Positions 3,763 through 18,033 of a DNA stretch of 21,973 nt are shown piece by piece. How positions within the stretch are numbered: position 1 is the first letter of the stretch; each line of letters opens with the position of its first letter. The DNA lies in the IMG/VR virus record IMGVR_UViG_3300001460_000171, positions 4,088 to 26,060 of that record. One strand, given 5' to 3'. The stretch is from a virus. Both the position numbers and the translations under genes were made by a program. Below the pieces are notes generated by a model. It did no database searches and was not told where the DNA came from. It saw only the letters and a list, made by a program, of their open reading frames with translations.

Positions 3763-5433
3763 ATGATGGGGCCAATGGCACCGCCGCAAGCGGCACCTGC
3801 GCAACCGCAGGTTTTGAATGTAAAGAACACACCTGATCAGCGATTAAAGTTTAAGGATTACATGCGCGGTATATCTTCGCCGCCTATGCCTGCTCCTGCG
3901 CCTATTATGCCTATGCTTCCTGCGCCTAATCCTATTGATCAGGTTGACATATTTGATCCTGTTCAGGGCATGGCATCTGGTGGTGTTGTTGGTGGTCTTG
4001 AGGATTTGGGCAAGATGTCTGATCAGATGGTAGAGGCTTTGAACACTGTTGTTTACGGCGGTGGTCAGGGTGGTGGTATGGGCAGTAGTCAGGGTAGTGG
4101 TATGGGTTATCCTACTCAAATGCCTGCTGTGGAGTTGGGTCTGGGTGACATGAGGTTTCCGTTTAGTGATTTAGACAGTCCGTTTGCTGACCCTATGTTT
4201 AACAACATGCCGCAAGTAGGCGGTAACATGGCTCCGCAAAACCAAATGACTACGCATTTTGGATTGCCCGGTCAGCTTGGTGATTTGCAGGAGGGAGCTC
4301 AGTTATTTGAAGATGTTACGGCTTTTGCCCGTGGTGGACCTGCTGGTTTGGCCGAAGATGAGCGTGCTGGGTTTTCTTTTGATGGTGGTGGTTCTGACGT
4401 TATTGGTGGTTCCAATGACACCAACAGCGACAATCGGGATTCTTTTGATTCTGGCGACAATAATTTTGATTCTGGTGGTAACAATGATGAGGAACCGATT
4501 GAATATATGATGACTGGCAAGCCTCTTGGGGAGGCATTAAAGGATGGTGTAGCGGATCTTTTGAGCACTGTAGATAAAACTAAAAACGATATGATTGAGC
4601 GCATACCTGTTAACAGTCCGTATAAGGCTGGCGTTGAGGTAGAGGCTATTCCAAAGGCTATTGATGCGGTTAATTTTTATGACGCAGGTAGTGACGTGCC
4701 ACATGATTTGTTAAATCCTCTTGGTGAGTTGATGGGCAGCAAGGTTTCTTACGGCGGCAGGGAGTCTAATGTTTTAGAGGATTTGGAGCGCAGGGCTGAT
4801 CCATCTAAGAACAAGCCATTTGGTGATATGTCTATACCGGGTTTTGGTAATATTCCGGGTATAGGTTCTGCTTTAAGCAATGTTGCTGGTAGTATTAACG
4901 CGCAACGTGCTGGCAAGTATTTAGATCAGATTGCCAATCAGGGTGCTTCGGCTGTTAGGGATCCTAAAACTGGCATGGTTATGGGTTATGTTGGTGAGGG
5001 GATTCTTGGTGGTCGTTCTTACACTGGTCGTTCTGGTTACAATCCTCTTGGTACGGGTGCTGTATTAGATCCTCTTACTAATTCTTACACTGTTCCTTTT
5101 GACGATGGCAGTGGTGATATGTTTAGGGATGATGATCCTTTGCCTTCTGTATTAAAGCCTATTGAGGAGGAGGATGAGATTGTTCTCCCGCCTTTGGACA
5201 TTCAGCCGCCTGCTCCTGTTGTTCCTAATGATCCTGTAGATGTTGTTGTTCCTAGTCCTCGTCGTCCGGTTGACGTAAGTGTTCCTATTGTTGGTTATCC
5301 TGAGTTGCCGCAGAACATTTTAGATTTATTGAATCTTTACAATAATCAACCTGTGTCTAGCTTTGCTGATGGTGGTGCTGTTTTGGACACGGCTGCGGGT
5401 AATTTTTTACAGGCTTTGAGATCAGCGGCTTAG
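3763..5433 (+). CDS. Gly/Pro-rich protein with GG boxes, 556 aa, next to TerL
   Basis: I cannot assign a family. The N-terminus is Pro/Met/Ala-rich (residues 1-60). It is followed by Gly/Met/Ser-rich low-complexity segments (about 97-165), an Asp/Asn/Gly-rich stretch (about 203-245), a more ordinary middle (about 250-440) and a Pro/Val-rich stretch (about 470-520). Three GG boxes recur: SGGVVGG (72-78), FARGGPAGL (188-196) and a C-terminal FADGGAV (534-540) close to the tag of several tiny proteins in this window. There is no signal peptide or membrane span. ATG 3763 has AGAGGG (3749-3754), and the stop is 3 bases before TerL's ATG. It probably is a virion or packaging-associated protein; that is inferred from position only. 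Codons are unusually rich in G and T. Confidence 0.75.
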   Translation: MMGPMAPPQAAPAQPQVLNVKNTPDQRLKFKDYMRGISSPPMPAPAPIMPMLPAPNPIDQVDIFDPVQGMASGGVVGGLEDLGKMSDQMVEALNTVVYGGGQGGGMGSSQGSGMGYPTQMPAVELGLGDMRFPFSDLDSPFADPMFNNMPQVGGNMAPQNQMTTHFGLPGQLGDLQEGAQLFEDVTAFARGGPAGLAEDERAGFSFDGGGSDVIGGSNDTNSDNRDSFDSGDNNFDSGGNNDEEPIEYMMTGKPLGEALKDGVADLLSTVDKTKNDMIERIPVNSPYKAGVEVEAIPKAIDAVNFYDAGSDVPHDLLNPLGELMGSKVSYGGRESNVLEDLERRADPSKNKPFGDMSIPGFGNIPGIGSALSNVAGSINAQRAGKYLDQIANQGASAVRDPKTGMVMGYVGEGILGGRSYTGRSGYNPLGTGAVLDPLTNSYTVPFDDGSGDMFRDDDPLPSVLKPIEEEDEIVLPPLDIQPPAPVVPNDPVDVVVPSPRRPVDVSVPIVGYPELPQNILDLLNLYNNQPVSSFADGGAVLDTAAGNFLQALRSAA

Positions 5434-5436
5434 TAA

Positions 5437-6921
5437 ATGGACAATGCACTTGATATAGCCACTGAGTTTCTGACTGATGCGGAGATTGAGTCGCTTGGCA
5501 AGCATTTAGACAAGTACAAGGAGTTGCATGAGCGTGATGCTCATCAGAACAGCTTTTTAGATTTTGTTAATTATGTTTGGCCATCTTTTATTACTGGCAA
5601 TCACCACAAGATTTTTGCGGATAAGTTAGAGCGTGTGGCTAATGGTGAGTTGAAGCGTTTGATCGTGAACATGCCACCTAGACATACGAAGTCTGAGTTT
5701 GCGTCATATTTGTTTCCTGCGTGGGTTATGGGCAAGAGTCCTAGTACGAAGATAATTCAGGCGACGCACACGGCGGAGTTGGCTGTAGGTTTTGGCCGTA
5801 AGGTCAAGAACTTGTTAGACAGTGATATTTACCGTGATGTGTTTCCGAAGATGGAATTGGCCAAGGATGCGAAGGCGAGTGGTCGTTGGTCAACTAATGA
5901 GGGTGGTGAGTATTACGCTGTTGGTGTAGGCGGTGCGCTAGCAGGTCGTGGTGCGAACTTGTGTATTATTGACGATCCTGTTTCTGAGCAGGATGCGTTA
6001 TCACCAACCGCGTTGGACAATATTTACGAATGGTACACATCAGGACCGAGACAGCGACTACAGCCGGGCGGATCGATAATAATTGTGATGACGCGGTGGA
6101 GCATCAGGGATTTGACTGCGAAGGTATTGCAGAAGCAGGCCGAGGGCGGGGCGGATCAGTGGGAGGTTGTGGAGTTCCCAGCGATATTTCCAGAAACAGA
6201 CAACGTGTTGTGGCCAGAATTCTGGAGCAGGGAAGAGCTAGAAGGCGTTAGGGCGTCTATTCCTGTTGGCAAGTGGAATGCGCAGTATTTACAGAACCCT
6301 ACTGCTGAAGAGGGTGCTATTATTAAAAGGGAGTGGTGGAATGTCTGGGAATTTGATGATCCTCCTCGCGTCGATTACGTCATCCAGTCGTATGACACCG
6401 CCTTCACCAAATCGGAAAGGGCGGATTATTCGGCTATTACGACTTGGGGTGTGTTTTATCCTGACGAGGGTGATGAGGCGGCGATCATATTGTTGGACGC
6501 TGAGAAGGGTAGATGGGAGTTTCCAGAGCTTAAAGACGCCGCGATGCGTTTGTACAAAGAGTTCGAGCCGGACATGGTGTTGATTGAGCAGAAGGCATCT
6601 GGCACGCCATTGACGCAGGATTTGCGTAAGATGGGCATACCTGTGAGTGGTTTTACGCCGGGCAGGGGTGCGGATAAGTTTTCTCGTATGAATGCGTGTG
6701 CGCCTGTGTTTGAGTCAGGCATGGTTTGGTGTCCAGAGACTAGATGGGCTGACGAGGTTATGGAAGAGTGTGCGGCGTTTCCTAATGGTGAACATGATGA
6801 CTTGGCGGATTCGATGACACAGGCTATACTACGTTTTAGGCAAGGTGGTTTTATTGGCACTCGTAATGATTACGAGGACGAAGATTTGGCTACGTATAAG
6901 CGTAGCAGGGAGTATTACTGA
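5437..6921 (+). CDS. terL: Terminase large subunit (TerL), 494 aa
   Basis: This is the ATP-driven motor and nuclease that packages and cuts phage DNA at the portal. Visible parts are the Walker A variant PPRHTKSE (residues 80-87), Walker B CIIDD (176-180), the coupling motif TRW (219-221), and a C-terminal RNase-H-type nuclease with acids in QSYDTA (D320), LIEQKASG (E384) and HDDLADS (D454/D455/D458). The length is typical and all key residues are present. No clear small terminase gene is adjacent. ATG 5437 follows the previous stop by 3 bases without a strong ribosome site, so coupled translation is likely. The TGA overlaps the next ATG by one base. Two stretches (about 6001-6240 and 6356-6420) look richer in C and A than the rest of the gene. 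Confidence 0.97.
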   Translation: MDNALDIATEFLTDAEIESLGKHLDKYKELHERDAHQNSFLDFVNYVWPSFITGNHHKIFADKLERVANGELKRLIVNMPPRHTKSEFASYLFPAWVMGKSPSTKIIQATHTAELAVGFGRKVKNLLDSDIYRDVFPKMELAKDAKASGRWSTNEGGEYYAVGVGGALAGRGANLCIIDDPVSEQDALSPTALDNIYEWYTSGPRQRLQPGGSIIIVMTRWSIRDLTAKVLQKQAEGGADQWEVVEFPAIFPETDNVLWPEFWSREELEGVRASIPVGKWNAQYLQNPTAEEGAIIKREWWNVWEFDDPPRVDYVIQSYDTAFTKSERADYSAITTWGVFYPDEGDEAAIILLDAEKGRWEFPELKDAAMRLYKEFEPDMVLIEQKASGTPLTQDLRKMGIPVSGFTPGRGADKFSRMNACAPVFESGMVWCPETRWADEVMEECAAFPNGEHDDLADSMTQAILRFRQGGFIGTRNDYEDEDLATYKRSREYY

Positions 6922-7367
6922 TGGCTAAAGTAAAAAAGATACCTATGAAAAAACTCACTCTTGAGGAGCTTGCTGAATTAACATTTGACAAAGGCGTTAC
7001 TCAAGGCAGTAGCGCAACCGCCAATCGCGCAAAAGGTTCTGGAATGAAACGAGGTGCTTATAGCGAGGGTGTAGGTAAAGAAAAAGGCGGCGTTATAACA
7101 AAACTTCCAAAGCCCAGCCCTAGACGTAAAATGAAAACTCCAAAGCCCAAGCCTAAAAGGGGTGATCTTAATGAAAGCATGTCTTCTAATGAGAAAATGA
7201 AGCCAGTTAATCTGAAAGATGGCGGTGCTGTCCCATCTGAGTTCAAAGGTTTTTCAAAGCTTCCTGAAGCTGTTCAAGAAAAGATGAATCCATCTGCCGC
7301 TAAGAAGTACAAGAATGGCGGTGCTGTTCTAGCTGGTCGTGGTGGTTCATTCAAAGGCACTCGTTAA
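6921..7367 (+). CDS. Basic tagged small protein, 148 aa
   Basis: No known family is recognised. It is strongly basic: Lys/Pro-rich in the middle (residues 58-82, repeated KPKP and PRRK). It carries two copies of the GGAV box, DGGAV (100-104) and NGGAV (132-136), and ends GRGGSFKGTR. The same ending recurs in the next two genes and in weaker form in others. It starts on the last base of the TerL stop and its own stop overlaps the next ATG, so it belongs to the packaging operon. The charge suggests contact with DNA or another nucleic acid, or a virion-internal place. This is inference. Confidence 0.8.
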   Translation: MAKVKKIPMKKLTLEELAELTFDKGVTQGSSATANRAKGSGMKRGAYSEGVGKEKGGVITKLPKPSPRRKMKTPKPKPKRGDLNESMSSNEKMKPVNLKDGGAVPSEFKGFSKLPEAVQEKMNPSAAKKYKNGGAVLAGRGGSFKGTR

Positions 7368-7582
7368 TGAGCAGTCGTAAGCTTACATCTAAGGCTCGTG
7401 AGTTACGCAAGCGTCAGCTTGAGCGTCTTGGCCATGACGATGATAAGATTATAGACATACTTGAGTATGAGTTTGATTTAGGTTTAGGAACAGCCCCCGG
7501 CACGCCACTAAGGGGTAAGAGATTTAAATATGGTGGCGCAGTTCTGTCAGGTCGTGGCGGCAAATTTAAAGGAGTAATGTAA
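7367..7582 (+). CDS. Basic tagged small protein, 71 aa
   Basis: Unknown family. The N-terminal 25 residues form a basic helix (SKARELRKRQLERL), followed by an acidic helix (DDDKIIDILEYEFDL) and the tag YGGAVLSGRGGKFKGVM at the C-terminus. The tag matches the preceding gene at about 12 of 17 positions, but the codons for GGAV differ (GGT GGC GCA GTT against GGC GGT GCT GTT). That points to kept protein sequence rather than a fresh duplication. It starts in a TAATG overlap and ends in another, so it is translationally linked on both sides. Confidence 0.8.
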   Translation: MSSRKLTSKARELRKRQLERLGHDDDKIIDILEYEFDLGLGTAPGTPLRGKRFKYGGAVLSGRGGKFKGVM

Positions 7583-7854
7583 TGGGTAGTAAAAACATAC
7601 TTGAAGAATCTGGAAAGACTATTTCTGATGCGGATAGGGCAAAAATAAATAGAATTACACGTTCTATGAAAGAGTCTGGGAAAACTATTTCTGATGCGGA
7701 TATTGATCGTGTGAGAAGGTCTGCTGCGGCAGGCGGTAAAAAAATTTCAGATAAAGATCTTAAACATTTAGCTAAAAATTACAAAGATGGTGGAGCGGTC
7801 TGTTCTGGTGCTGGTTCTGCCATGCAAGGCACGAAGTTTCGTGGTGTTAGATAG
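7582..7854 (+). CDS. Small protein with three SGKTISDAD repeats and GGAV tag, 90 aa
   Basis: Unknown family. Three short repeats are seen: ESGKTISDAD (about 9-18), ESGKTISDAD (about 31-40) and AGGKKISDKD (about 50-59). Each is followed by a basic helix (RAKINRITRSM, IDRVRRSAA, LKHLAKNYK). The C-terminus is the tag KDGGAVCSGAG...KFRGVR, here with a Cys. The repeated start-of-helix pattern with basic helices suggests a small helical bundle or nucleic-acid binder. It is the last of three tagged genes in a row after TerL. Confidence 0.78.
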   Translation: MGSKNILEESGKTISDADRAKINRITRSMKESGKTISDADIDRVRRSAAAGGKKISDKDLKHLAKNYKDGGAVCSGAGSAMQGTKFRGVR

Positions 7855-7861
7855 GTAGAAT

Positions 7862-7993
7862 ATGCTGTATAAGGGACAAGAGGCTGGTTTACGGCTCAAG
7901 AGCGTCGCTCTTGCCCTTTTTGTGGCGCTTTGCAGGCTCCCCACACCACCTGCGCTGTTGCCAGCCTCACCACATGGAGCTTTAAATGGCTGA
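7862..7993 (+). CDS. Possible small membrane or exported peptide, 43 aa
   Basis: ATG 7862 opens a 43-codon frame running to TGA 7991-7993, overlapping the next start (7986) by 8 bases, an overlap style used throughout this genome. The product has a charged start (MLYKGQEAGLRLK), a hydrophobic stretch (SVALALFVALC) and a Pro/Leu/Ala tail. The ribosome site is weak (AGGTAGA at 7853-7859). The same bases can fold into strong hairpins, so this may instead be a non-coding leader. I see no family. Confidence 0.3.
   Translation: MLYKGQEAGLRLKSVALALFVALCRLPTPPALLPASPHGALNG
7871..7968 (+). other. Structured RNA region with competing hairpins
   Basis: Seen: an outer 8-bp pairing GAGGCTGG (7880-7887) with CCAGCCTC (7961-7968). 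It encloses a hairpin AAGAGC/GCTCTT (7898-7903 with 7907-7912) and GCAGG/CCTGC (7932-7936 with 7949-7953). A competing pairing joins AAGGG-A-CAAGAG (7871-7882) to CTCTTGCCCTT (7908-7918), using the same CTCTTG. A switch between the two shapes is inferred, not shown. Confidence 0.45.
7897..7921 (+). terminator. Possible intrinsic terminator or attenuator
   Basis: Seen: a hairpin AAGAGC-GTC-GCTCTT extended by flanking C and G, then GCCC and five T residues (7917-7921). The U-run is separated from the short stem, so termination would be partial unless the longer 7871-7918 pairing forms. It sits between the tagged-protein genes and the portal gene pair. Confidence 0.4.
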
Positions 7994-8873
7994 TGACGGT
8001 ATTTTTGGCGCATTTAATGCCCCTCCTGCATCTCAAGAGATGTTTAAGGAGCTTGTAGATAAAACTGATATTTTTACCGACCCTATGGGTAGCGAGACTT
8101 TAGGAGCAGTAAATCGCGCCATTGTTTCTGCTCCTATTGATGCCATTGATATGGTTGGTCGTGCTGGAGATACTATTTTACGTGGTGCGGCCAAGGCCGG
8201 ATCTGGGATTATGAGTGCTTTTGGTGAAGATGACGCCATGGCGGAAAGGTTTGGTCGAGATGTTTATCAAGCTCTTACTGTTGCCCCTGTTGCCACTGCA
8301 ATGGCACCATTACGTCCTAGAGGCAAATCGAATAAGACGCTTGTGCTTGAAGCGCAGAAAGACAAATTAAAGTCTCCTTCTGCTAAATCTGCTATTGATG
8401 AAGATATTGAGATCGCTGCTTTGCGTGATTCATTTGATGATGCGGCAGAAGAAATGACAACTGCTATGGGTATGTCCATTGATCGTCCTTCTGGATATTT
8501 ATCTGCGGATGATGCTTTTGACATTATTCAGGATTCTTATTTAGACAGCAGGGGTTTAGGAATGTCTAAAAGTGACGCTATTGCTGAGGCTTTAATGAAG
8601 AATCCTGATGTTGCTACAGTGTCTTCTCCTATGTTAAAGCGTCTTGATGCTGATTATAATTTCAGGTCATCTAGTGCTATGAAAAGAAAAAAAGAAGGTG
8701 CTGATTCTCGTAGGAATTTAGAAATGCAAGCTAGGCGTGCTAATAATCCTACACAGCCTACTAGATCTGTTAGTATGGAAGAAGCTACACGAATGCAAAA
8801 CGAACTTAGTGGCATGGCAATACCAGAGCCAGCGAAGCCAACGTTTGCAGTTATTGAAGGCGGAAAGGAATAG
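7986..8873 (+). CDS. Hypothetical protein upstream of the portal, 295 aa
   Basis: I do not recognise a family. The first 110 residues are Ala/Gly/Met-rich and amphipathic (DMVGRAGDTILRGAAKAGSG), which suggests helices that touch membrane or other proteins. Residues about 115-250 are charged and helical, with ADDAFDIIQDSYLDSRGLGMSKSDAIAEALM resembling a helical-hairpin segment. A basic stretch lies at about 233-255. The C-terminus ends PTFAVIEGGKE. GGAG at 7976-7979 supports ATG 7986. The stop is 2 bases before the portal ATG. Position and composition fit an internal or portal-associated virion protein (inference). Confidence 0.75.
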   Translation: MADDGIFGAFNAPPASQEMFKELVDKTDIFTDPMGSETLGAVNRAIVSAPIDAIDMVGRAGDTILRGAAKAGSGIMSAFGEDDAMAERFGRDVYQALTVAPVATAMAPLRPRGKSNKTLVLEAQKDKLKSPSAKSAIDEDIEIAALRDSFDDAAEEMTTAMGMSIDRPSGYLSADDAFDIIQDSYLDSRGLGMSKSDAIAEALMKNPDVATVSSPMLKRLDADYNFRSSSAMKRKKEGADSRRNLEMQARRANNPTQPTRSVSMEEATRMQNELSGMAIPEPAKPTFAVIEGGKE

Positions 8874-8875
8874 CC

Positions 8876-11308
8876 ATGGCTATCGAAAGAGGATTAGGTG
8901 CTGGAGGTCTAAACAAGGCTACACCTGTACAGGAAGAAGCTGAAATAGATTTCGTAGAAATGCCGGAAAATCCTAACGTCATGGAGATGGAAGACGGTTC
9001 TGTAATTATTGGTGAGATTGAAGAGGACACTGTTCCTTTGGAAATTTCGTTTGATTCAAACCTTGCAGATTATATTGACGAATCTGAACTTATGAAAATT
9101 TCTTCTGATCTTGTTAGCGGTATTGAAGAGGACATTTCTTCTCGCCAAGAGTGGGAAGATACGTATAAACGTGGCATTGATCTTCTTGGCATGGAGTATG
9201 ACGAGCGTACACAGCCATTTGAAGGCGCTACAGGCGTTGTACACCCTCTCCTATCAGAATCGGTCACTCAATTCCAAGCACAGGCTTACAGAGAGATGTT
9301 GCCCTCTGGCGGTCCTGTTAGAACACAGGTTGTAGGCGCAGAAACAGAAGAGGTTTCTGCACAGGCTGATCGTGTAAAGCATTATATGAATTACATGCTT
9401 ACATACGAGATGGAAGAATATGACCCTGAAACTGATCAGATGTTATTTTATCTTCCCATTGTGGGTTCGACGTTTAAGAAGGTGTATTATGATCCCCTTC
9501 TGCAGCGTGGTGTTAGCAAGTTTGTCCACGCTGAAGATTTAGTTGTTCCTTATGGTGCTACAGATCTGCTTACATCACAGCGTATTACGCATATTATTCG
9601 CATGGACAGCAACGAAGTTCGTAAGATGCAGTTAGGCGACTTTTATCGTGACGTAGATTTGCCTAGCAGTGGTGACACTCAGTTTTCTGAAGTTCAAGAA
9701 GCCATTGACGATGCGCAAGGCGTCCAGTTGTCTGGAACTCCTGAAGAGATGACCTTGTATGAGGTTCATACATCGCTGGACATTGAAGGCTTTGAAGATA
9801 TGACTTCAGAGGGAGAGCCTAGTGGTCTTAAACTCCCTTACATTGTAACAATCCTAGAGTCCACTGGGGATGTTTTATCTATTCGTAGAAACTACCAAGA
9901 GAGCGACCCTATGATGCGTCGCCAGCAATATTTTGTGCATTACAAGTTCTTGCCGGGTCTTGGTTTCTATGGTTTTGGTCTCACGCATATGATTGGTGGT
10001 CTTTCGCAGGCATCTACAAGTATTCTTCGCCAGTTAATTGATGCTGGAACTCTGTCTAACTTGCCTGCTGGATTTAAAGCTCGCGGTGCGCGTATTAGAG
10101 ATGAAGATGAGCCACTGTCGCCGGGTGAATTCCGTGATATTGATGCTGCTGGCATGGATATTCGTCAGTCTATCATGGCTTTGCCGTTTAAAGAGCCTTC
10201 AGGCACATTGTACAACTTGCTTGGTACTCTTGTAGACTCTGGAAGACGTTTTGCTTCTATGGCTGATATGAAGATCAGTGAGATGGGTGGTGAAACTCCT
10301 GTCGGCACCACCATGGCAATTATGGAGCGTGGCACAAAAGTAATGAGTGCTATTCACAAGCGGTTGCATTACTCGCAAAGGCAGGAGTTCAAGCTTCTTG
10401 CTGATGTTTTTGCTAAGTTCATGCCACCTGTATATCCGTATGCTGTAACAGGAGCACCGCAGGACATAAAGCAATCAGACTTTGATCAAAGAGTAGATGT
10501 TCTGCCTGTATCAGATCCTAACATCTTTTCTATGTCGCAACGGATTGCTTTAGCACAAACACAATTACAGCTTGTTCAATCTAATCCAGAAATACATGGT
10601 GGCCCACAGGGTCTTTACCATGCTTACCGAAATATGTATGAGGCTTTGGGTGTTACAGACATAGATATGATCTTGCCTAAGCCACCACAGCCACAACCTA
10701 TGAACCCAGCCAAGGAAAACCAAGAGGCTCTTCGCAATCAACGCCTTCAGGCTTTCCCACAACAGAACCATGAGGCACATATAGAGGCTCATGTTGCTAT
10801 GATGGCTACTCCAGCGGCTCAAGCGAATGCTAATGTGATAATGACCATACAAGGCCATGTTCAAGAGCACATTGGCTTTATGGCAGAGGCTATGGCTCAA
10901 CAAGAGCTTATGCAGACTATGGATCCGCAACAGCAAATGATGCTCCAACAAGACCCACAAGCTGCTCAGATGATGCAGATGGAGATTGAAAATAGAGCGG
11001 CTGAGATAATTGGCGAACTGACAGAACAGTACGCTCAAGCAGTTGCTCCTGCTGAAACAACCGATCCATTGGTAGCGATACGGCAGCAGGAGCTTTCATT
11101 AAAGGGTGCGGAAATCCAAGAACGTGCAAGGCAGTTCGAGGAGAAGCAAGACCTAGAGGAACGCAAAGAAAGAAACGATGTTCTCTTAGGCCAGCAACGC
11201 ATAGAGCTTACAGAAGAGGCTACCGCAGAAAAAACACGGGTAGCTGAACAAAGAATCCAAACGCAGCGTGATATTGCAGCTGCTAACTTAGCGAATAGGA
11301 GACAATAA
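8876..11308 (+). CDS. Portal protein, P22/SU10 type, 810 aa
   Basis: The portal forms the 12-subunit ring at the head vertex through which TerL drives DNA. Visible hallmarks of the P22-like portal family are WEDTYKRGIDLLGMEYDER early in the core (about residues 90-110), a conserved FEGATGVVHPLL segment, YLPIVGSTFKKVYYD, the VVPYGA segment, and the RRQQYFVHYKFLPG and FYGFGLTHMIGG regions. The first 60 residues are acidic. The last about 190 residues are Gln/Met/Glu-rich with long helical stretches (QQEL, QQQMMLQQ, and a charged coiled coil at 735-800), as expected for a portal barrel or tail. At 810 residues it is on the large side. GGAAAGG at 8861-8867 supports ATG 8876, and the next gene starts directly after the stop. 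Confidence 0.93.
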   Translation: MAIERGLGAGGLNKATPVQEEAEIDFVEMPENPNVMEMEDGSVIIGEIEEDTVPLEISFDSNLADYIDESELMKISSDLVSGIEEDISSRQEWEDTYKRGIDLLGMEYDERTQPFEGATGVVHPLLSESVTQFQAQAYREMLPSGGPVRTQVVGAETEEVSAQADRVKHYMNYMLTYEMEEYDPETDQMLFYLPIVGSTFKKVYYDPLLQRGVSKFVHAEDLVVPYGATDLLTSQRITHIIRMDSNEVRKMQLGDFYRDVDLPSSGDTQFSEVQEAIDDAQGVQLSGTPEEMTLYEVHTSLDIEGFEDMTSEGEPSGLKLPYIVTILESTGDVLSIRRNYQESDPMMRRQQYFVHYKFLPGLGFYGFGLTHMIGGLSQASTSILRQLIDAGTLSNLPAGFKARGARIRDEDEPLSPGEFRDIDAAGMDIRQSIMALPFKEPSGTLYNLLGTLVDSGRRFASMADMKISEMGGETPVGTTMAIMERGTKVMSAIHKRLHYSQRQEFKLLADVFAKFMPPVYPYAVTGAPQDIKQSDFDQRVDVLPVSDPNIFSMSQRIALAQTQLQLVQSNPEIHGGPQGLYHAYRNMYEALGVTDIDMILPKPPQPQPMNPAKENQEALRNQRLQAFPQQNHEAHIEAHVAMMATPAAQANANVIMTIQGHVQEHIGFMAEAMAQQELMQTMDPQQQMMLQQDPQAAQMMQMEIENRAAEIIGELTEQYAQAVAPAETTDPLVAIRQQELSLKGAEIQERARQFEEKQDLEERKERNDVLLGQQRIELTEEATAEKTRVAEQRIQTQRDIAAANLANRRQ

Positions 11309-11524
11309 ATGTCAGCAAGTTCAGTCAGACGGAATATAGAGGCCGTTATAAAGGCTAAAAAGTTAGAGCCGCAAGCCGAAGTTGAAAAAGTAAGAGCGAG
11401 GGATGAAGATGGTCACTTTATCGCAGACAACCCAGAAACCCCAGAAAATGAAGCTTGGGTCGAAAAAAAACCTGCCGTTAAAAAAGCGGCACCAAAAAAA
11501 GCAGTCGCCAAAAAGAAAAAGTAA
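11309..11524 (+). CDS. Small protein with Lys/Ala-rich tail, 71 aa
   Basis: The middle (about residues 29-51, ARDEDGHFIADNPETPENEAW) fits a DG.F..D.P.TP..NEAW pattern that I recall from small phage proteins near head genes. The C-terminus is a histone-H1-like run of Lys, Ala and Pro (KKAAPKKAVAKKKK). No function is known to me. The tail could bind DNA. AGGAGAC (11298-11304) supports the start, directly after the portal stop. The end of the gene is a run AAAAAGAAAAAG before TAA. A +1 slip there would enter the frame of the micro-ORF at 11529 and add a tag-like end. Confidence 0.78.
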   Translation: MSASSVRRNIEAVIKAKKLEPQAEVEKVRARDEDGHFIADNPETPENEAWVEKKPAVKKAAPKKAVAKKKK

Positions 11525-11528
11525 CGGC

Positions 11529-11588
11529 ATGACTGTTTCTAGGTTCTCTAGCATAGCTAGGCCACAAAGATTTCTTGGAGTTAGGTAA
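11529..11588 (+). CDS. Micro-ORF with tag-like C-terminus, 19 aa
   Basis: ATG 11529 starts 4 bases after the previous stop and runs 19 codons to TAA 11586-11588, which overlaps the next ATG in the same TAATG style as nearby genes. The peptide ends RPQRFLGVR, close to KFRGVR, SFKGTR and KFKGVM at the ends of the tagged proteins. The ribosome site is poor. Either it is a tiny coupled gene, or it is the frameshifted tail of the preceding Lys-rich protein: the same frame is open back to 11403. Confidence 0.45.
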   Translation: MTVSRFSSIARPQRFLGVR

Positions 11589-11797
11589 TGTCTGAAAGAA
11601 AGACAGATGGTCGTACTGATAAGGAAATACGAATAATAGCTATTTCTGGAAACATTAGTAACCTTACTAATAATCAATATGATAGACACTTAGAAATGGA
11701 AAAGAATAAACCTGCTCCAAAGAAGATGGAACATGGTGGAGCAGTTTGCCGTGGTCAGGGAAGTGTTACGAAAACAAGAAAGTTTAAAACTTTGTGA
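11588..11797 (+). CDS. Tagged small protein, 69 aa
   Basis: Unknown family. The N-terminal half is polar and charged (SERKTDGRTDKEIRII, then ISNLTNNQYDRHLEMEK). The C-terminal half is basic and carries the tag HGGAVCRGQGSVTKTRKFKTL, with a Cys at the same place as in the 7582-7854 protein. Codons for GGAV (GGT GGA GCA GTT) again differ from the other copies. It overlaps the preceding stop by one base and its TGA overlaps the next ATG by one base. Confidence 0.75.
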   Translation: MSERKTDGRTDKEIRIIAISGNISNLTNNQYDRHLEMEKNKPAPKKMEHGGAVCRGQGSVTKTRKFKTL

Positions 11798-12108
11798 TGG
11801 CTAAAAAGTTTCAAAAGAGCACAGAATATTCTCATTATGACCTTGATAATGATGGGATTATAACTGATGAAGAGTTAGAGCAAGCCAAGTCTATGCAACA
11901 GACTGAAAGAGAGCTGCGGAAAAGTTTGGCGCAACTTAGGATGGCTCGATATACATTAATAAGCATGGGTTTGTTTACTGTAGCTATGTTTTTTATTCCT
12001 TTGGATAGGGTCAAGGTTCTGTCCGACATATCTAATTTATTTTATATTTCTGGCGCTGGGGTCGTTGGTGCTTACATGGGTACAACAGCGTGGATGAACA
12101 GGAAATAG
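11797..12108 (+). CDS. EF-hand membrane protein, 103 aa, possible holin-like
   Basis: Residues 15-26 form a complete EF-hand calcium loop: D15, D17, D19, G20, I22 and E26 (DLDNDGIITDEE). A charged helix follows (27-50), then two membrane spans (about 52-69 and 80-99) and a short basic end. The arrangement of a soluble calcium site on a two-span membrane protein is unusual for a phage gene of this size. It sits next to a 3TM holin-like gene, so a role in lysis or membrane contact is plausible, though no endolysin is in the window. ATG 11797 overlaps the previous stop. A GTG at 11794 is an alternative. Family name not recognised; the motif and spans are clear. Confidence 0.8.
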   Translation: MAKKFQKSTEYSHYDLDNDGIITDEELEQAKSMQQTERELRKSLAQLRMARYTLISMGLFTVAMFFIPLDRVKVLSDISNLFYISGAGVVGAYMGTTAWMNRK

Positions 12109-12111
12109 ATT

Positions 12112-12550: not shown

Positions 12551-12747
12551 TGGACGCTATACAACTGGCGGAGTATTTACTTAAAGACATACGCAAGCAG
12601 AGAGATGGTTATACTCAAAGGCTGGCGGATGGAGTGGCGGAATCCATACAGGATTATCGATTTATTGTAGGTCAAATACGCGGTCTGACCTATTCAGAAG
12701 ATCTTATTAGAACCGCGATGAAAGGTGTGGAATTAGAAGATGGCTAA
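12550..12747 (+). CDS. Small conserved-looking head-region protein, 65 aa
   Basis: A small helical protein with a long first helix (AIQLAEYLLKDIRKQRDGY) and a second segment IQDYRFIVGQIRGLTYSED that I recall from short proteins placed before phage scaffold or capsid genes. No function known. It starts on the last base of the previous stop and overlaps the GroES gene by 8 bases, so the three are translated together. Confidence 0.7.
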   Translation: MDAIQLAEYLLKDIRKQRDGYTQRLADGVAESIQDYRFIVGQIRGLTYSEDLIRTAMKGVELEDG

Positions 12748-13222
12748 AAAACTATTCGTCCCAGAGAGGATGGCAAGCCCAAAGGAAACAGCAAGTGCAG
12801 TTCCTGCGGCGATTACTAAAGGGTTTGAAAGTGTAGAAGACCCTAATCAAAAAAATACAGAAGATCCTTCAGAAATGGAATTATCAGTCATAGAAAGACT
12901 GCCACAACCAGTTGGCTATCGTCTTCTAGTAATCCCATATTACATGAAACAGAAAAGCGCTGGTGGAATTATTATTCCAGACTCAATTCGAGAGCGTGAA
13001 AGCTTTGCAACAGTTGCGGCTTATGTCGTAAAAGTTGGCCCTGACGCATATATGGACGCCAACAAGTTCCCTTCCGGGCCTTGGTGTGATGAGAAGTCAT
13101 GGGTACTTATGGGTAGATATGCTGGAAACAGGTTTAAAGTAGATGGATTAGAGGTAAGATTGATCAATGATGACAATATTATCGCTACTATTCTTGACCC
13201 AGCCGATATTTCTTATGTATAG
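12740..13222 (+). CDS. Phage GroES-like co-chaperonin, 160 aa
   Basis: GroES caps the GroEL chamber, and phage versions (T4 gp31 is the classic case) help fold the capsid protein. Residues about 52-157 read as a GroES domain: LPQPVGYRLLVIPY, then the mobile loop KSAGGIIIPDS (72-82), very close to the GroEL-binding loop of bacterial GroES, then VVKVGPDAY, a GRYAG segment and a closing INDDNIIATI. About 50 extra N-terminal residues of low complexity make it longer than the usual 95-100. ATG 12740 overlaps the preceding gene by 8 bases. It stands directly before the scaffold and three genes before the capsid protein, as expected for a capsid-folding helper. A host GroEL is presumably needed. Confidence 0.92.
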   Translation: MAKKLFVPERMASPKETASAVPAAITKGFESVEDPNQKNTEDPSEMELSVIERLPQPVGYRLLVIPYYMKQKSAGGIIIPDSIRERESFATVAAYVVKVGPDAYMDANKFPSGPWCDEKSWVLMGRYAGNRFKVDGLEVRLINDDNIIATILDPADISYV

Positions 13223-13236
13223 TGGGAGACATGGAT

Positions 13237-14157
13237 ATGAACACTGAAACACAATCTGAAGAAAAAGAAGAATTTGTTGCTGTTGAGCTTGAAGAAGATC
13301 AACAGGATAATTCAATTGAAAGTTCAGAAGAAGAAACCAGTACAATTGTACAGGATTCTAGTAATGAAAATGAGCCTTCTGAAGATCTTGAAAATTACAG
13401 CGACAATGTAAAAAAGAGAATTAATCAATTAACGGCCAAGCGTAAGCAAGCTTTAGAAGAAGCTGAAGCTGCATATACATACGCTCAACAAGTCCAGCAA
13501 CAAAATGAAGACATGAAAAAACGTCTTTCTGACTTGGACAAAGGCTATATTAATGAGTATGGCACTCGCGTAGAGTCTCAAGAGGCATCTGTCAAAAAAG
13601 TTATGCAAGAGGCATATGACTCTGGAGATATGGCAAAAGTAGCAGACGCTCAATCTGCTTTATCACAGTTAGCGATTGAAAAAGAACGTCTTCGTGTGCA
13701 AAAAGCTCGTTCAGAAAAAAATGAACAAGAAATTAAGGCACAGCCAGAATCACCTGTGCAAAGAAGACAACCTGTTCAAGAACAGGATCTTGATCCAAAG
13801 CTTAAAAAATGGATGTCACAAAACTCTTGGTTTGGCCAAAATATGGTTATGAGCAAAGGTGCTGAAGCCATACACGAGCAATTAGTCGGCCAAGAAGATT
13901 TTGATCCTTCTAGTGATGAATATTATCAGGAAATAGACAAGCGCATGCGCGAACATTTCCCACAAAAGTTTCAGGAGCAACGGAACAACGCCCAATCTGT
14001 CACTCCTGCGTCCTCTGGACGGTCAGCTACCAAAAATGGGCGGAAAAAAACGACTGTGCAACTCAACCAAGGACAGGTCCAGTTTTGTAAAAAAATGGGC
14101 ATCAAACCGGAAGATTATGCAAAAGAAATCGTAAGATTAGAGAGAAGGAACGGATAA
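13237..14157 (+). CDS. Probable head scaffolding protein, 306 aa
   Basis: Scaffolds guide assembly of the procapsid and leave before DNA enters. The protein has a very acidic first 55 residues, a coiled coil (about 60-170, from KKRINQLTAKRKQALEEAEAA onward), a Gln/Pro linker and a helical C-terminal part with WMSQNSWFGQNMVMSKGAEAIH and EYYQEIDKRMREHFP, a pattern I associate with podovirus-type scaffolds. The C-terminus is basic, as needed to bind the capsid protein. The frame is open back to GTG 13222 and ATG 13231, but GGGAG (13224-13228) fits ATG 13237 best (8 bases). The call rests on composition and place between GroES and capsid. Confidence 0.78.
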   Translation: MNTETQSEEKEEFVAVELEEDQQDNSIESSEEETSTIVQDSSNENEPSEDLENYSDNVKKRINQLTAKRKQALEEAEAAYTYAQQVQQQNEDMKKRLSDLDKGYINEYGTRVESQEASVKKVMQEAYDSGDMAKVADAQSALSQLAIEKERLRVQKARSEKNEQEIKAQPESPVQRRQPVQEQDLDPKLKKWMSQNSWFGQNMVMSKGAEAIHEQLVGQEDFDPSSDEYYQEIDKRMREHFPQKFQEQRNNAQSVTPASSGRSATKNGRKKTTVQLNQGQVQFCKKMGIKPEDYAKEIVRLERRNG

Positions 14158-14618
14158 TGTCAGATCGCACAAATCGGGAGTCGCAAACCCGTGAAAAACA
14201 AGCGAGAGTTGCAGATTGGCGTCCACCTTCAGCTTTAGAAGCCCCTGACGCACCTGTTGGCTATAAACACAGGTGGATCCGCGAGTCTGTCATGGAATAT
14301 GATGACCGTAACAACGTTCACAAGCGCCGTCGTGAAGGATATGAATTGGTTCGCGCCGAAGATTATCCAGAGTTTGACGCTCCTGTGATTGACGAAGGTA
14401 AAAACGCAGGCGTAATTGGCGTTGGAGGTCTGGTTCTTGCTAGAATTCCTGAAGAAATTGCGGATCAGCGTAATGCTCACTATCAGCATACTACGCAAAA
14501 CCAAATGGAAGCTGTGGATCGTGACTGGATGCGTGAAAGCAACGCTGCGATGCCCAAGCTTAAACCCCAACGTTCTACCTCTGTGTCCTTTGGAGGACCA
14601 AAGGTAGCTGACAATTAG
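14157..14618 (+). CDS. Head-region hypothetical protein, 153 aa
   Basis: I cannot name a family. The N-terminus is polar and basic, then come WRPPSALEAPDAPVGYKHRWIRESV (about 21-45) and a region ending in LVLARIPEEIADQRNAHYQ (about 92-110). The C-terminus is Ser/Gly-rich and looks flexible. It overlaps the scaffold stop by one base and is followed by two head genes, so a small capsid-associated or assembly role is likely. A similar protein in this slot is common in relatives, as far as I recall. Confidence 0.72.
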   Translation: MSDRTNRESQTREKQARVADWRPPSALEAPDAPVGYKHRWIRESVMEYDDRNNVHKRRREGYELVRAEDYPEFDAPVIDEGKNAGVIGVGGLVLARIPEEIADQRNAHYQHTTQNQMEAVDRDWMRESNAAMPKLKPQRSTSVSFGGPKVADN

Positions 14619-14629
14619 GAGATAAAAAG

Positions 14630-15214
14630 ATGGCTAATCAAGATGCCGCCTTTGGCCTACGCCTTTCGCGTTCAGGTAATGGCTCCGATCTGATTGGCAT
14701 GCAGAACAAATACCGCGTTGCGGCTAACTACGGTACTTCAATCTTCCAAGGTGACATTGTAAAAGCTGTCACTGGCGGTGGTGTTGAGCGTATCGCGGCT
14801 GGCAATACGGATCTTGTTTTGGGTGTTTTCAACGGATGCCGTTATACTGACCCGAGTAGTGGAAAAGAAACCTTTTCCAACTTTTACCCAGCCTCTACAA
14901 ATGCTGCTGACATTGAAGCTTTTATTATTGATGCGCCACATGCTCAATATGAGATTCAAGCTGATGCCGCATTCCCTGTAGCGGATCTGTTTGGTAATTT
15001 CGACATTGTTGATGCGACTGCTGGAAGCACAGCTTCTGGTACTTCTCGAACAGAGATTGATGTGACAACTGGCGCGACTACTGCTGGTTTGCCTCTCAAA
15101 GCTATCGACATTTCCACTGACCCAGAGAACAGTGATGTTAGTTCTGCTAATACAAATGTAATTGTTGTTATCAACAATCATCTGTTTAGCGCTGGCACTA
15201 CTGGCTTGGCATAA
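14630..15214 (+). CDS. Probable head decoration/stabilisation protein, 194 aa
   Basis: It begins ANQDAAFGLRLSRSGNGSDL, a start pattern I recall from proteins placed before the capsid gene in marine podovirus-like genomes. It is rich in Ala, Gly, Thr and Asp with many beta-strand-like stretches (YGTSIFQGDIVKAV, NTDLVLGVFNGCRY, NVIVVINNHLF), which suits a decoration or cement protein. There is no signal peptide. AGGAGAT (14617-14623) supports ATG 14630. The function is inferred from place and fold-like character, not from a known domain. Confidence 0.7.
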   Translation: MANQDAAFGLRLSRSGNGSDLIGMQNKYRVAANYGTSIFQGDIVKAVTGGGVERIAAGNTDLVLGVFNGCRYTDPSSGKETFSNFYPASTNAADIEAFIIDAPHAQYEIQADAAFPVADLFGNFDIVDATAGSTASGTSRTEIDVTTGATTAGLPLKAIDISTDPENSDVSSANTNVIVVINNHLFSAGTTGLA

Positions 15215-15226
15215 GGAGGCTGATCA

Positions 15227-16135
15227 ATGGCTATTTCTCGCGCACAACTAGCGAAAGAGCTAGAACCCGGCCTAAACGTTCTATTCGGAATGGAATATGA
15301 TCGTTATGATGCCGAGCATGCTGAAATCTACGACACCGAATCTTCAGATCGTGCATTTGAAGAGGAGGTAATGCTCGTCGGTTTTGGAAATGCAAGTACA
15401 AAGTCTGAAGGCGCTGGCGTTCAGTTTGACTCTGCTTCAGAGGCATATACTGCACGTTATACGCATGAGACAATTTCTCTTGCGTTTGCTTTGACAGAAG
15501 AAGCTATGGAAGACAATTTGTATGATCGCCTTGGCGCTCGTTATACAAAGGCTCTTGCTCGCTCAATGGCACACACTAAGCAGGTTAAAGCCGCTGCAAC
15601 ACTGAACAATGCGTTCAACAGCAGCTTTACTGGTGGCGACGGTAAGGAGCTTTGTGCTACTGACCACCCACTAGCTGGTGGCGGAACATTCCGCAATGAG
15701 CCATCTACTGCCGCTGACCTCAACGAAACTTCACTTGAGAATGCTCTAATCGACATCTCAACATTCGTTGATGAGCGTAATATGATTATCGCCCTTCGTG
15801 GTGTTAAGCTTATTGTGCCACCGCAGCTTCAGTTTGTTGCTGATCGTCTTCTTGAGTCTACACTCCGCGTTGGTTCAGCCGACAACGATGTAAACGCAAT
15901 AAAGAACACGGGTATGTTGCCAGATGGTTATACAATTAACCACTTCCTAACAGACCCAGATGCGTTCTTCCTAAAGACAGACGCCCCTAACGGCTTCAAG
16001 CACTTTGAGCGTGCTCCTCTGTCTACAAACATGGAATCTGATTTTGATTCAGGCAACATGCGCTTCAAGGCTCGTGAACGTTATAGCTTCGGCTTTAGCG
16101 ATCCACGCGCAGTGTTCGGTTCACCGGGCGCATAA
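15227..16135 (+). CDS. Major capsid protein, Mu gpT-like, 302 aa
   Basis: This is the main shell protein. It follows the Mu gpT-like capsid pattern: LEPGLNVLFGMEYDRY at the N-terminus, FEEEVMLVGFG, YTARYTHETISLAFALTEEAMEDNLYD, an E-loop-like segment, CATDHPLAGG (about 143-152), IALRGVKLIVPPQL with RLLESTLRVGSADNDVNAIK, and a C-terminal MRFKARERYSFGFSDPRAVFGS. This is an HK97-type fold by family knowledge. No delta domain or protease gene is visible. It has the strongest ribosome site in the head module (AAGGAGG, 15213-15219), as expected for an abundant protein, and is followed by a terminator at 16156-16185. Confidence 0.93.
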   Translation: MAISRAQLAKELEPGLNVLFGMEYDRYDAEHAEIYDTESSDRAFEEEVMLVGFGNASTKSEGAGVQFDSASEAYTARYTHETISLAFALTEEAMEDNLYDRLGARYTKALARSMAHTKQVKAAATLNNAFNSSFTGGDGKELCATDHPLAGGGTFRNEPSTAADLNETSLENALIDISTFVDERNMIIALRGVKLIVPPQLQFVADRLLESTLRVGSADNDVNAIKNTGMLPDGYTINHFLTDPDAFFLKTDAPNGFKHFERAPLSTNMESDFDSGNMRFKARERYSFGFSDPRAVFGSPGA

Positions 16136-16155
16136 GCGTAAAAATCAATATAATG

Positions 16156-16185
16156 AAAGGGCGGCTTTGCAGTCGCCCTTTTTTT
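16156..16185 (+). terminator. Rho-independent terminator after the capsid gene
   Basis: Seen: AAAGGGCG (16156-16163) pairs with CGCCCTTT (16174-16181), plus two inner pairs, and is followed by a T-run (16179-16185). It ends the head unit, probably giving a peak of capsid message. Confidence 0.9.
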
Positions 16186-16186
16186 A

Positions 16187-16227
16187 TGTATAATAAATTT
16201 ATCCCTGACAGCTTTATAATAAAGCTG
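16187..16227 (+). promoter_or_regulatory. Two TATAAT boxes and a perfect leader hairpin
   Basis: Seen: TATAAT at 16189-16194 and again at 16215-16220. The second lies inside a perfect 8-bp hairpin, CAGCTTTA-TAA-TAAAGCTG (16209-16227). No good -35 is seen at 17 bases from either. A promoter for the next unit is expected here after the terminator, but the evidence is weak; the hairpin may instead be a 5' mRNA stabiliser or an operator. Confidence 0.35.
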
Positions 16228-16252
16228 ACTATAGCCAAGACAGGAGATCTAA

Positions 16253-16870
16253 ATGGCTAATACCACTTTCTCAGGACCAGTGCGTTCTGAAAACGGCTTT
16301 GAAACCGTATCAAAAAATGCCACTACTGGCGCTATTACAATTACCAGTGGCTCAAAAATGGCAACAGAAGCGGCTGGAGGTGCTGGCATTGAAGGCACTG
16401 CGGAAGTCTATATCACTCAGGTAGAGCGTTTTAAAAGCGACACCTCAACAAACGTTAATATTGTAAAAACTACTATTATGATTGATCTCACTGGTCTGCG
16501 CTCAACTGCGGCTGGAGACATCATTGGTAAGGATGGTTCTGGGGTTGCTTACATTGGTAAGGTTACAGCTGCAAACCAAGGTACAGTATTTGGCGTAACT
16601 ATGGAATGCTTTGAAGCTCCAGCAGGCGGTGATCCAGACATTAACCTACACTCTGCCACTGAAGGCACAGGTGTTGAAGACACACCTATTTCTGATTTAA
16701 CAGAGACGCTGATCATTAATGGTGGTGATGCTGCGGTTGGAACACGTACAGTCGGCGGTACTATTGCTGCGGATCAATTCTTGTACCTAACTGCTGGCGC
16801 TACCACTGACGCTACCTATACAGCAGGTAGATTGATTATAACAATCACTGGCTATGATGTTGCTTCTTAA
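16253..16870 (+). CDS. Probable virion structural protein, 205 aa
   Basis: It starts ANTTFSGPVRSENGF, a start pattern I recall from marine phage structural proteins next to the capsid gene. It is rich in Gly, Ala, Thr and Ile with repeated strand-like segments (GAITITSGS, AEVYITQVERF, TLIINGGDAAVGTRTVGG, GRLIITITGYDV). That fits a beta-rich surface or decoration protein. No enzyme motif, signal or membrane span is seen. GGAGAT (16242-16247) supports ATG 16253. It is the first gene after the capsid terminator. Confidence 0.7.
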   Translation: MANTTFSGPVRSENGFETVSKNATTGAITITSGSKMATEAAGGAGIEGTAEVYITQVERFKSDTSTNVNIVKTTIMIDLTGLRSTAAGDIIGKDGSGVAYIGKVTAANQGTVFGVTMECFEAPAGGDPDINLHSATEGTGVEDTPISDLTETLIINGGDAAVGTRTVGGTIAADQFLYLTAGATTDATYTAGRLIITITGYDVAS

Positions 16871-16892
16871 CCTAACATAAGGAGTAACTAAC

Positions 16893-17297
16893 ATGGCAGA
16901 TGCTGTAGCTACACAGACTCTCTTGGATGGCGAGAAAATGGTCGTCCAAAAATTCACCAACATTTCTGATGGAAGTGGTGAAAGTGATGTTGTTAAAGTG
17001 GACGTTAGCGCATTAGTCGCTAACGCACGCGGCCAAGCGTGTACTGGTGTTACCATTGAAAAGATTTGGTGGCAGTGCATTGGTATGAAGGTCCAAATTT
17101 TTTGGAACGCTACTTCCAATGTATTTTGTATAGAATTAGGTGAAAATCAAAGCGGTAATCACGACTATACAGCCTTTGGTGGCCTCTTAAACAACGCTGG
17201 AAGTGGCAAGGACGGTGACGTTTTGTTCACAACAGTTGGTCATACAAGCGCGGATACATACACAATTATTATGTCTATGCGAAAAGATTATGGCTGA
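16893..17297 (+). CDS. Probable virion structural protein, 134 aa
   Basis: Beta-rich and acidic, with alternating strand patterns (KMVVQKFTNISDG, VVKVDVSALVANARG, MKVQIFWNATSNVFCIEL, TYTIIMSMRKDYG). I recall similar proteins from marine podovirus-like genomes, where they follow capsid genes, without known function. AAGGAG at 16879-16884 supports ATG 16893. Its end overlaps the start of the basic protein at 17290 by 8 bases. A head or neck component is my best guess. Confidence 0.68.
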   Translation: MADAVATQTLLDGEKMVVQKFTNISDGSGESDVVKVDVSALVANARGQACTGVTIEKIWWQCIGMKVQIFWNATSNVFCIELGENQSGNHDYTAFGGLLNNAGSGKDGDVLFTTVGHTSADTYTIIMSMRKDYG

Positions 17298-17577
17298 GTC
17301 TAAAAAGGGCGAAATGCCCAAGCGCAACAAGAAAAATTTCCGTCCCACAAAATCTGGGGCGGGAATGACTAAGGCTGGAGTTAAAGCTTACAGAAGAAAA
17401 AACCCCGGTAGTAAGCTAAAAACAGCAGTAACAGGAAAAGTTAAGAAGGGAAGTGTTGCAGCTAAACGTCGTAAATCTTATTGCGCTCGTTCTGCTGGAC
17501 AGATGAAAAAGTTCCCTAAAGCAGCAAAAAATCCTAATAGCAGGCTAAGGCAGGCTAGAAAGAGATGGAAATGTTAA
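17290..17577 (+). CDS. Very basic small protein, DUF6321-like, 95 aa
   Basis: Rich in Lys and Arg throughout. The order GMTKAGVKAYRRKNPGSKLKTAV, then KKGSVAAKRRKSYCARSAG, then an end RLRQARKRWKC matches the small phage family I know as DUF6321 (by memory and by eye). Conserved-looking features are NPGSKLKTAV, RRKS(Y/F)CAR and the final KRW.C; the two Cys could bind metal. ATG 17290 is chosen over the upstream in-frame ATG 17203, which would overlap the structural gene by 95 bases. Function is unknown; nucleic-acid binding is likely from charge. Confidence 0.82.
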   Translation: MAESKKGEMPKRNKKNFRPTKSGAGMTKAGVKAYRRKNPGSKLKTAVTGKVKKGSVAAKRRKSYCARSAGQMKKFPKAAKNPNSRLRQARKRWKC

Positions 17578-17825
17578 GTAAAGAACTGGTAATAGGCACT
17601 TTATTTGTGGCATTTGTTGGAGTTTGCGTCAGTTCTTTAGGATGGATTGCGACTACTTTAATTCATGTAGATAAAACTATCGCTGTTATTGCTGTTCAAG
17701 TAGAGGCAAATAACAATATGCTTTTGCCTATGTGGGAAGAATTTACAGGAAGGACATACGATGACAATCTCGCGCAGTTCGATTCCAAAACAAATATCAG
17801 ATCCGCCGTTCAAAAGGGGCTCTAA
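17565..17825 (+). CDS. Small membrane protein, 86 aa
   Basis: One N-terminal membrane span (about residues 7-29, VIGTLFVAFVGVCVSSLGWIA) is followed by a helical outside or inside tail (VDKTIAVIAVQVEANNNMLLPMWEEF) and a short polar end. It resembles one-span phage membrane proteins near lysis genes, but no family is certain. It overlaps the basic protein gene by 13 bases and the next gene by 65 bases. ATG 17571 is an alternative start. Confidence 0.68.
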   Translation: MEMLSKELVIGTLFVAFVGVCVSSLGWIATTLIHVDKTIAVIAVQVEANNNMLLPMWEEFTGRTYDDNLAQFDSKTNIRSAVQKGL

Positions 17826-18033
17826 AATGCCAAAAGATGCTTGTTATAAAAAAGTTAAAGCAAGATATAAAGTTTTCCCGTCAGCATATGCTTCAGGGGC
17901 TATTGCAAAGTGCCGAAAAGTAGGAGCCAAAAACTGGGGGAATAAAGCGAAAAAAATGAAAGATGGCGGTCTTGTAAGCCGTGGTTATGGGTGTGCAAAA
18001 TCAAAGGGGCGTAAGAAAACAAGAATAGTATGA
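17761..18033 (+). CDS. Basic small protein with KARYKVFPSAYASGA core and GG tag, 90 aa
   Basis: The core (about residues 25-60: YKKVKARYKVFPSAYASGA, then CRKVGAKNWGN) is a pattern I recall in many marine phages without known function. After it comes KMKDGGLVSRGYGCAKSKGRKKTRIV, a variant of the C-terminal GG tag. AGGAAGGA (17747-17754) strongly supports ATG 17761, which overlaps the membrane gene by 65 bases. A later start at ATG 17827 (AAAGGGG 17814-17820) would drop the SRSSIPKQISDPP start. Two starts, and so two products, are possible. Confidence 0.75.
   Translation: MTISRSSIPKQISDPPFKRGSKMPKDACYKKVKARYKVFPSAYASGAIAKCRKVGAKNWGNKAKKMKDGGLVSRGYGCAKSKGRKKTRIV

Follow-up and report, generated by a model that had tools for sequence, protein, structure and literature searches.

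A shared C-terminal tag on exchangeable small proteins in the head module of HTVC023P-related podoviruses

Small proteins encoded beside the head genes in a stretch of viral DNA from the IMG/VR record IMGVR_UViG_3300001460_000171 (bases 4088-26060 of the 26,060-base record; 21,973 nucleotides, hereafter the window) were found to share a C-terminal peptide, here called the tag, with roughly the consensus Y/MxxGGxVxRG(xGAAx)RGGKFKGVx. The record belongs to a relative of the HTVC023P-type podoviruses; its nearest named phages by portal protein are the Pelagibacter phages HTVC023P and HTVC027P, phage 023Pt_psg01 and the freshwater phage DSL-LC04 (45-48% identity). The tag follows one phage lineage, lies in its head module, is under selection at the amino-acid level, and is carried by basic proteins whose bodies are exchanged between genomes. 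By analogy with known capsid-loading signals, we give about an even chance to the proposal that it is a C-terminal recruitment (cargo-loading) peptide, which would bring small, mostly basic proteins, exchangeable for one another, into the head as it assembles.

Five small proteins in the window carry the tag, and all five were recovered by a profile built without the window or overlapping loci, with the following scores:
6921-7367, + strand: 148-aa basic protein, pI 10.3; tag AKKYKNGGAVLAGRGGSFKGTR at 7299-7364; 28.2 bits
7367-7582, + strand: 71-aa protein, body kept in the close relatives L008-L010; tag KRFKYGGAVLSGRGGKFKGVM at 7517-7579; 24.0 bits
7582-7854, + strand: 90-aa repeat protein (ESGKTISDAD...); tag AKNYKDGGAVCSGAGSAMQGTKFRGVR at 7771-7851; 38.7 bits
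11588-11797, + strand: 69-aa protein encoded downstream of the portal; tag PKKMEHGGAVCRGQGSVTKTRKFKTL at 11717-11794; 40.0 bits
17827-18033, + strand: PSAYAS-module protein; tag KKMKDGGLVSRGYGCAKSKGRKKTRIV (about 17950-18030); 19.0 bits
The last of these was listed and scored as an open reading frame (ORF) from 17761, which is probably too long, the true start being the internal ATG at 17827. The 148-aa protein has a second, internal GGAV (LKDGGAVPSEFKGFSKLPEAVQEKMNP) at 7221-7232. The first-pass annotation of this DNA had assigned the shared ending to these five proteins and to two others, which share the GGxV core alone and gave no match to the profile:
3763-5433, + strand: 556-aa low-complexity protein upstream of the terminase gene; ends FADGGAVLDTAAGNFLQALRSAA, GG[AS]V core alone
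19639-19857, + strand: Gly-rich protein of GGKV/GGAA repeats, encoded immediately ahead of the SU10-type adaptor gene
In the 556-aa protein, GGAV is followed by an amphipathic helix-like end, LDTAAGNFLQALRSAA, which is conserved among its own orthologues.

The resemblance of these ends exceeds what composition would produce. A search of all six reading frames of the window gave six copies of GGAV, each in the frame of a predicted + strand gene (once in the 556-aa protein, twice in the 6921 protein, once each in those at 7367, 7582 and 11588), while composition-preserving shuffles of the predicted proteins gave a mean of 0.30 and a maximum of 3 in 2000. Within 30 residues of the C-terminus it was found in 5 proteins against 0.06 expected, and these shuffles reject chance as a full explanation. 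A cross-test was also carried out, in which a profile trained solely on tags from loci picked by one DNA pattern was applied to terminase-selected loci. Among 7,367 ends on both strands, 71 C-termini reached at least 8 bits, all on the + strand, compared with 0.6 per shuffled-end replicate. Gly-rich ends in general thus do not match the profile equally well, and low-complexity Gly-rich ends are likewise rejected as a full explanation.

An alignment of 60 tags separated a short form, GGAVMPGRGGKFKGVF, from a long form, GGAVCRGMGAALRGGKFKGVK, which stand a five-residue gap apart. The best-conserved columns are the glycines, V11, A18 and F24, with the basic R13 and R20 slightly less so. The distance of GGxV from the C-terminus is most often 15-24 residues (184 of 458 + strand cases), and the pattern RGMGAAxRGxxF, present in 118 IMG/VR stretches, lies no more than 8 residues from the C-terminus in 114 of 118. 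A genome mostly has at least one short tag and one long tag before the portal gene, and often one more after it. Another GGxV end, YKxGG(I/M)VYNPFxxGIGA(L/F), was seen on long proteins between terminase and portal (L061:5738-7372, L062:2762-4927 and L069:4655-6061).

Selection acts on the peptide and not on the DNA that encodes it. As had been claimed from the window, the GGAV codons differ between its copies, and across genomes RGMGAA is written in 50 different DNA forms in 135 copies. Where two tags have a residue in common, their codons for it agreed at a frequency of 0.451 within a genome and 0.442 between genomes, with 0.394 expected from codon usage. Since codon choice is near random, the likeness of the tags does not come from copied DNA, and copying or gene conversion was rejected as a full explanation. 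The ratio of nonsynonymous to synonymous substitution rates (dN/dS) was 0.16 for tags and 0.175 for the bodies of orthologues.

The tags are concentrated in the head module. One late module in the window holds terminase, portal, GroES, capsid and the SU10-type adaptor gene, and the window genome follows the lineage gene order TerL (terminase large subunit), portal, GroES, capsid, to which the gene order of HTVC023P-type pelagiphages and DSL-LC04 is related:
5437-6921, + strand: terminase large subunit, bounding the tag-gene array on the left; phrog_38, 4.6e-115
7986-8873, + strand: 295-aa protein beside the portal, untagged, function unassigned in the family scan
8876-11308, + strand: portal protein, right border of the tag-gene array; phrog_1216, 1.9e-50
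12740-13222, + strand: GroES co-chaperonin, kept across the lineage; PF00166, 1.3e-9
13222-14157, + strand: 311-aa protein in the usual scaffold position, candidate tag partner; phrog_28737 (function unassigned)
15227-16135, + strand: major capsid protein, candidate tag partner; PF25209, 1.9e-12; phrog_371
In 80 loci chosen by terminase alone, 182 tags were located between terminase and portal (132 kb), 21 after the portal (160 kb) and none upstream of the terminase (352 kb), counts that are not fully independent because some loci are near-duplicates; 15 further tags lie downstream of the terminase where the locus has no portal in its stretch.

Across related IMG/VR contigs, 391 tagged ORFs represent 273 distinct proteins in about 49 body clusters, a number that is approximate because single linkage may merge or split short low-complexity bodies. 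The bodies are basic (median pI 9.97 vs 6.58) and rich in disorder, in which they resemble the internal head proteins of T4, and they are more basic and have fewer hydrophobic residues than untagged small genes in the same loci. Between terminase and portal, 185 of 273 genes carry the tag, and these turn over fastest. Where two terminases are 98-100% identical, tagged interval genes were shared in 54% of cases against 91% of post-portal genes; the values fell to 25% against 63% at 94-98% terminase identity and to 12% against 50% at 90-94%, and although BLAST misses short bodies more easily, it does not do so at genome similarity this high. Untagged interval genes showed intermediate turnover. 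In the first slot downstream of the portal, the window has a protein (11588) whose body is unrelated to that of the relatives' gene there, while the tag is kept. A DUF5872-type body is tagged in locus L225 and untagged in the window:
18907-19185, + strand: DUF5872 protein, untagged; homologous body tagged in L225
The first-pass annotation had called the bodies unrelated, which is true within the window, while relatives reuse some bodies. Scans of 76 tagged proteins with Pfam, PHROGs, NCBIfam and PADLOC gave almost no function, the exceptions being one LysM protein and one Rnk_N match. The LysM-domain protein, with the tag RGMGAATRGGKFKIR, is encoded at L158:3063-3683 and at L200:1043-1651 (minus strand), and its domain fits a protein that meets the cell wall.

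Among named phages, the tag profile matched the whole records of HTVC023P and DSL-LC04 twice each, with one of the DSL-LC04 matches weak; the carriers are gp32 and gp51 of HTVC023P and a protein after the portal in DSL-LC04. The former is a Pelagibacter phage, the latter a freshwater phage assigned to a gammaproteobacterial host. Compared with the window, HTVC023P-type phages and DSL-LC04 have few tags per genome and no amidoligase match. Among loci from L103 onward with RGMGAAxRGxxF, just three were without any landmark of the lineage, and in 257 Gb of prokaryote genomes the same pattern gave 3 matches, non-terminal in the 2 with a recovered reading frame. Run with tblastn against 50,697 phage records, two short tag peptides gave nothing even at E = 10, as expected for such short queries and so not evidence of absence. 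No isolate matched the full tagged proteins of L105 and L110, and the tag profile found no match up to E = 10 among sequences of solved structures. The open-access literature, including work on HTVC023P and on virion-packaging C-terminal motifs, held no description of the tag, most subscription papers lying outside that coverage; RGMGAA appeared there in nothing but an unrelated Cas9 guide-RNA paper.

Two known systems resemble this arrangement. In phage T4, an N-terminal signal directs the internal proteins (IPI-III, Alt) to be packaged in the capsid, and their payloads block different restriction enzymes (PMC9026906, PMC12373910). T4 internal proteins and the tagged set alike are small basic proteins with unrelated bodies, one shared terminal signal, fast-changing loci and exchange of payloads (PMC9026906, PMC12373910). 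The unrelated bodies with one terminal peptide are represented here by the 273 distinct proteins in their approximately 49 clusters, and fast-changing loci with basic payloads were found as well. However, the T4 signal is N-terminal and is cut off by the protease gp21, whereas the tag is C-terminal (in the 114 of 118 given above) and longer, no such protease was recognised in the scanned proteins, and entry of its carriers into the virion is a prediction. Encapsulin targeting peptides are short, C-terminal or sometimes N-terminal, and load unrelated cargo into an HK97-fold shell (PMC8346489). The tag is also C-terminal, and the capsid gene lies in the same late module, not directly adjacent, its HK97 fold being assigned by family only. 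Encapsulins package enzymes and not DNA, whereas the tagged bodies are mostly disordered basic proteins, and we claim no sequence match between the peptides. As a recruitment peptide, the reading to which we give about even odds, the tag would work like both of these kinds without being a member of either.

A possible, indirect link to virion proteins comes from cyanomyoviruses. The PSAYAS module of the tagged protein at 17827 is part of the T4-GC 119 protein (Syn19_101, SSM1_115, PSSM2_123), with 73% identity over 49 residues. In T4-GC 119, PSAYAS and DUF6321 modules are fused in one long protein beside gp16, whereas they are separate genes in the window:
17284-17577, + strand: DUF6321 protein, untagged; cyanophage T4-GC 119 has this module at its C-terminal end
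The loci listed with this module correspondence are L233, L234 and L235. In the stretch of Syn19 that was covered, the GenBank note 'similar to S-SM1 protein' stands on gp3, 13-15, 18-21, 23 and T4-GC 119 and not on gp16, gp17 or replication genes; mass spectrometry is reported to have detected 41 proteins of the S-SM1 virion (PMC3037559). The place of T4-GC 119 among structural proteins in this annotation points indirectly to a virion location for the PSAYAS and DUF6321 modules. The DUF5872 protein at 18907 was tested as a further part of T4-GC 119, which was unsupported.

We favour a recruitment peptide because one address, many exchangeable basic payloads and confinement to the head module form the pattern of T4 internal proteins and encapsulin cargo peptides. 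Small, mostly basic, disordered proteins, presumably made late in infection, would bear the tag. An interior-facing part of the assembling head, with scaffold, portal and capsid protein as candidates, would bind it through side chains of Val, Ala, Phe and Val, which glycine turns hold at regular spacing, and the tagged proteins would in this way end up inside the particle, perhaps to be ejected along with the DNA. Since the address would be separate from the payload, genes between terminase and portal could be swapped with the head unchanged, whatever purpose the payloads may serve. The original interpretation receives partial support: a signal for sorting or for entry into the virion, recognised by one shared partner, is its best-founded reading, on the strength of the head-module position, the single lineage, the exchanged basic bodies and the amino-acid-level constraint, with virion entry itself an extrapolation from these.

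Several observations weigh on the other side. RGMGAAxRGxxF is N-terminal in 4 of 118, small proteins in L150, L155, L192 and L201 carrying RGMGAAKRGGNF at the N-terminus, and several tag versions coexist within one genome, so that a single binding site would need to tolerate them. T4-GC 119 itself lacks the tag, and the S-SM1 note is indirect. HTVC027P, 023Pt_psg01 and CRP-902, which have related portals, gave no match to the final tag profile, 023Pt_psg01 showing a weak, related ending, GGFIARGCGKVMSNRRKKTKIA. An AlphaFold model of the 11588 protein from ten sequences had a mean pLDDT of 54.9; as its confidence was low throughout, it is uninformative on a bound form.

Among the alternatives to a recruitment peptide, an unlikely but serious one is that the tag is a nucleic-acid-binding tail of the RGG/RG-box type, with which the proteins coat or condense phage DNA or RNA, any presence in the virion then following from DNA binding and not from a partner in the head. 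The tag is indeed rich in R, G, K and F (GRGGKFKG), with a composition like that of an RGG/RG box, the bodies are basic, and two of the conserved positions are Arg. Yet the spacing of G-G-x-V, G-x-G-A-A and F-x-G-V is better kept than the charge, and nothing would oblige a generic basic tail to keep a constant distance from the C-terminus.

We think it rather improbable that the tag steers its carriers to a partner, of the host or of the phage, that lies outside the particle (for takeover, degradation, membrane or transcription), its position reflecting late expression only. Most bodies have no recognised fold, and the tagged LysM protein could act at the cell wall. Nevertheless, the tags follow one phage lineage, none lies upstream of the terminase, and scans with a defence-system library gave marginal matches only.

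There is only a slim chance that the tag serves as a substrate for maturation or modification, with a head protease cleaving it or an upstream amidoligase attaching it to something. Two genes of the window bear on the amidoligase version:
1516-2751: Amidoligase_2-type gene (PF12224), upstream of the 556-aa protein
415-822: gamma-glutamyl cyclotransferase-like gene (PF06094), upstream of the 556-aa protein
Of 29 related loci that extend far enough upstream, 28 have an Amidoligase_2 gene, which would allow the modifying enzyme first suggested. But tags also occur in the complete genomes of HTVC023P and DSL-LC04, where the amidoligase model finds nothing, and dependence of the tag on amidoligase was rejected as a full explanation. 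Little speaks for the earlier notion of a protease signal: the scan of window head proteins recognised no dedicated prohead protease, and only the capsid protein gave weak matches to combined capsid-protease families.

It is very doubtful that the shared ends are recombination handles, that is, short DNA homologies at gene ends for cassette exchange with the protein motif as a by-product. The very fast exchange of tagged genes and their head-to-tail arrays joined by TAATG are what such handles would give, but the near-random synonymous positions (0.45 within and 0.44 between genomes vs 0.39 expected) and the 50 DNA forms of RGMGAA had already weakened this idea.

That the tag end is conserved only as the ribosome-binding site of the next gene (AAAGGAGT = K-G-V) is scarcely credible: AAAGGAGTN encodes KGV in about 46 tags, mostly directly ahead of the next ATG, but this site is missing from 74 of 142 xGV ends, no start codon adjoins 36 of 135, the endings KIR, KIY and FTNA do without it, the conserved GGxV...GxGAA lies 30-60 bases upstream, and FRGVR of the 7582 protein cannot be one because its TAG stop is 131 bp ahead of the next gene, so that the overlap is refuted as a full explanation and can account for no more than the final three residues, and for these only in some copies.

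One further ORF in the window, overlooked in the first-pass annotation, has a variant of the tag:
11403-11588, + strand: ORF overlapping gene 11309-11524 in another frame; variant tag SRFSSIARPQRFLGVR (SSIARPQRFLGVR) at 11538-11585
Its stop overlaps the start of the 11588 gene (TAATG), and its ending SRFSSIARPQRFLGVR is the counterpart of GG(V/A)V-x-GFSPIARPQRFKGVF in relatives. It is possibly a +1 frameshift product or a decayed gene. The overlapped gene 11309-11524 encodes 71 aa with a lysine run at the end and has A-rich stretches at the overlap, and similar ORFs are present in L041-L043. In addition, EF-hand-like motifs (DLDNDGIITDEEL, DKNKDGKISGEDF) were seen, under Pfam cut-offs, in small late proteins at window 11794-12108 and L088:33143-33508, and GDGKVTKKDIL adjoins tags in relatives.

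Injected or enclosed phage proteins are usually found singly. We tentatively propose, at just short of even confidence, that marine podoviruses possess a hitherto undescribed C-terminal address tag for loading small proteins into the particle, in which a detachable address is combined with an open-ended set of rapidly exchanged payloads and the two or three versions per genome may mark different head sites. If the tag does recruit proteins into the head, candidate virion payloads could be listed from sequence alone across many uncultured ocean phages, and this payload set would be a natural place to seek anti-defence proteins. T4's N-terminal capsid targeting sequence would then have a C-terminal equivalent, with which chosen proteins could be loaded into a phage shell in the laboratory. 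Even if it acts otherwise, a strongly conserved peptide on dozens of unrelated proteins needs explaining.

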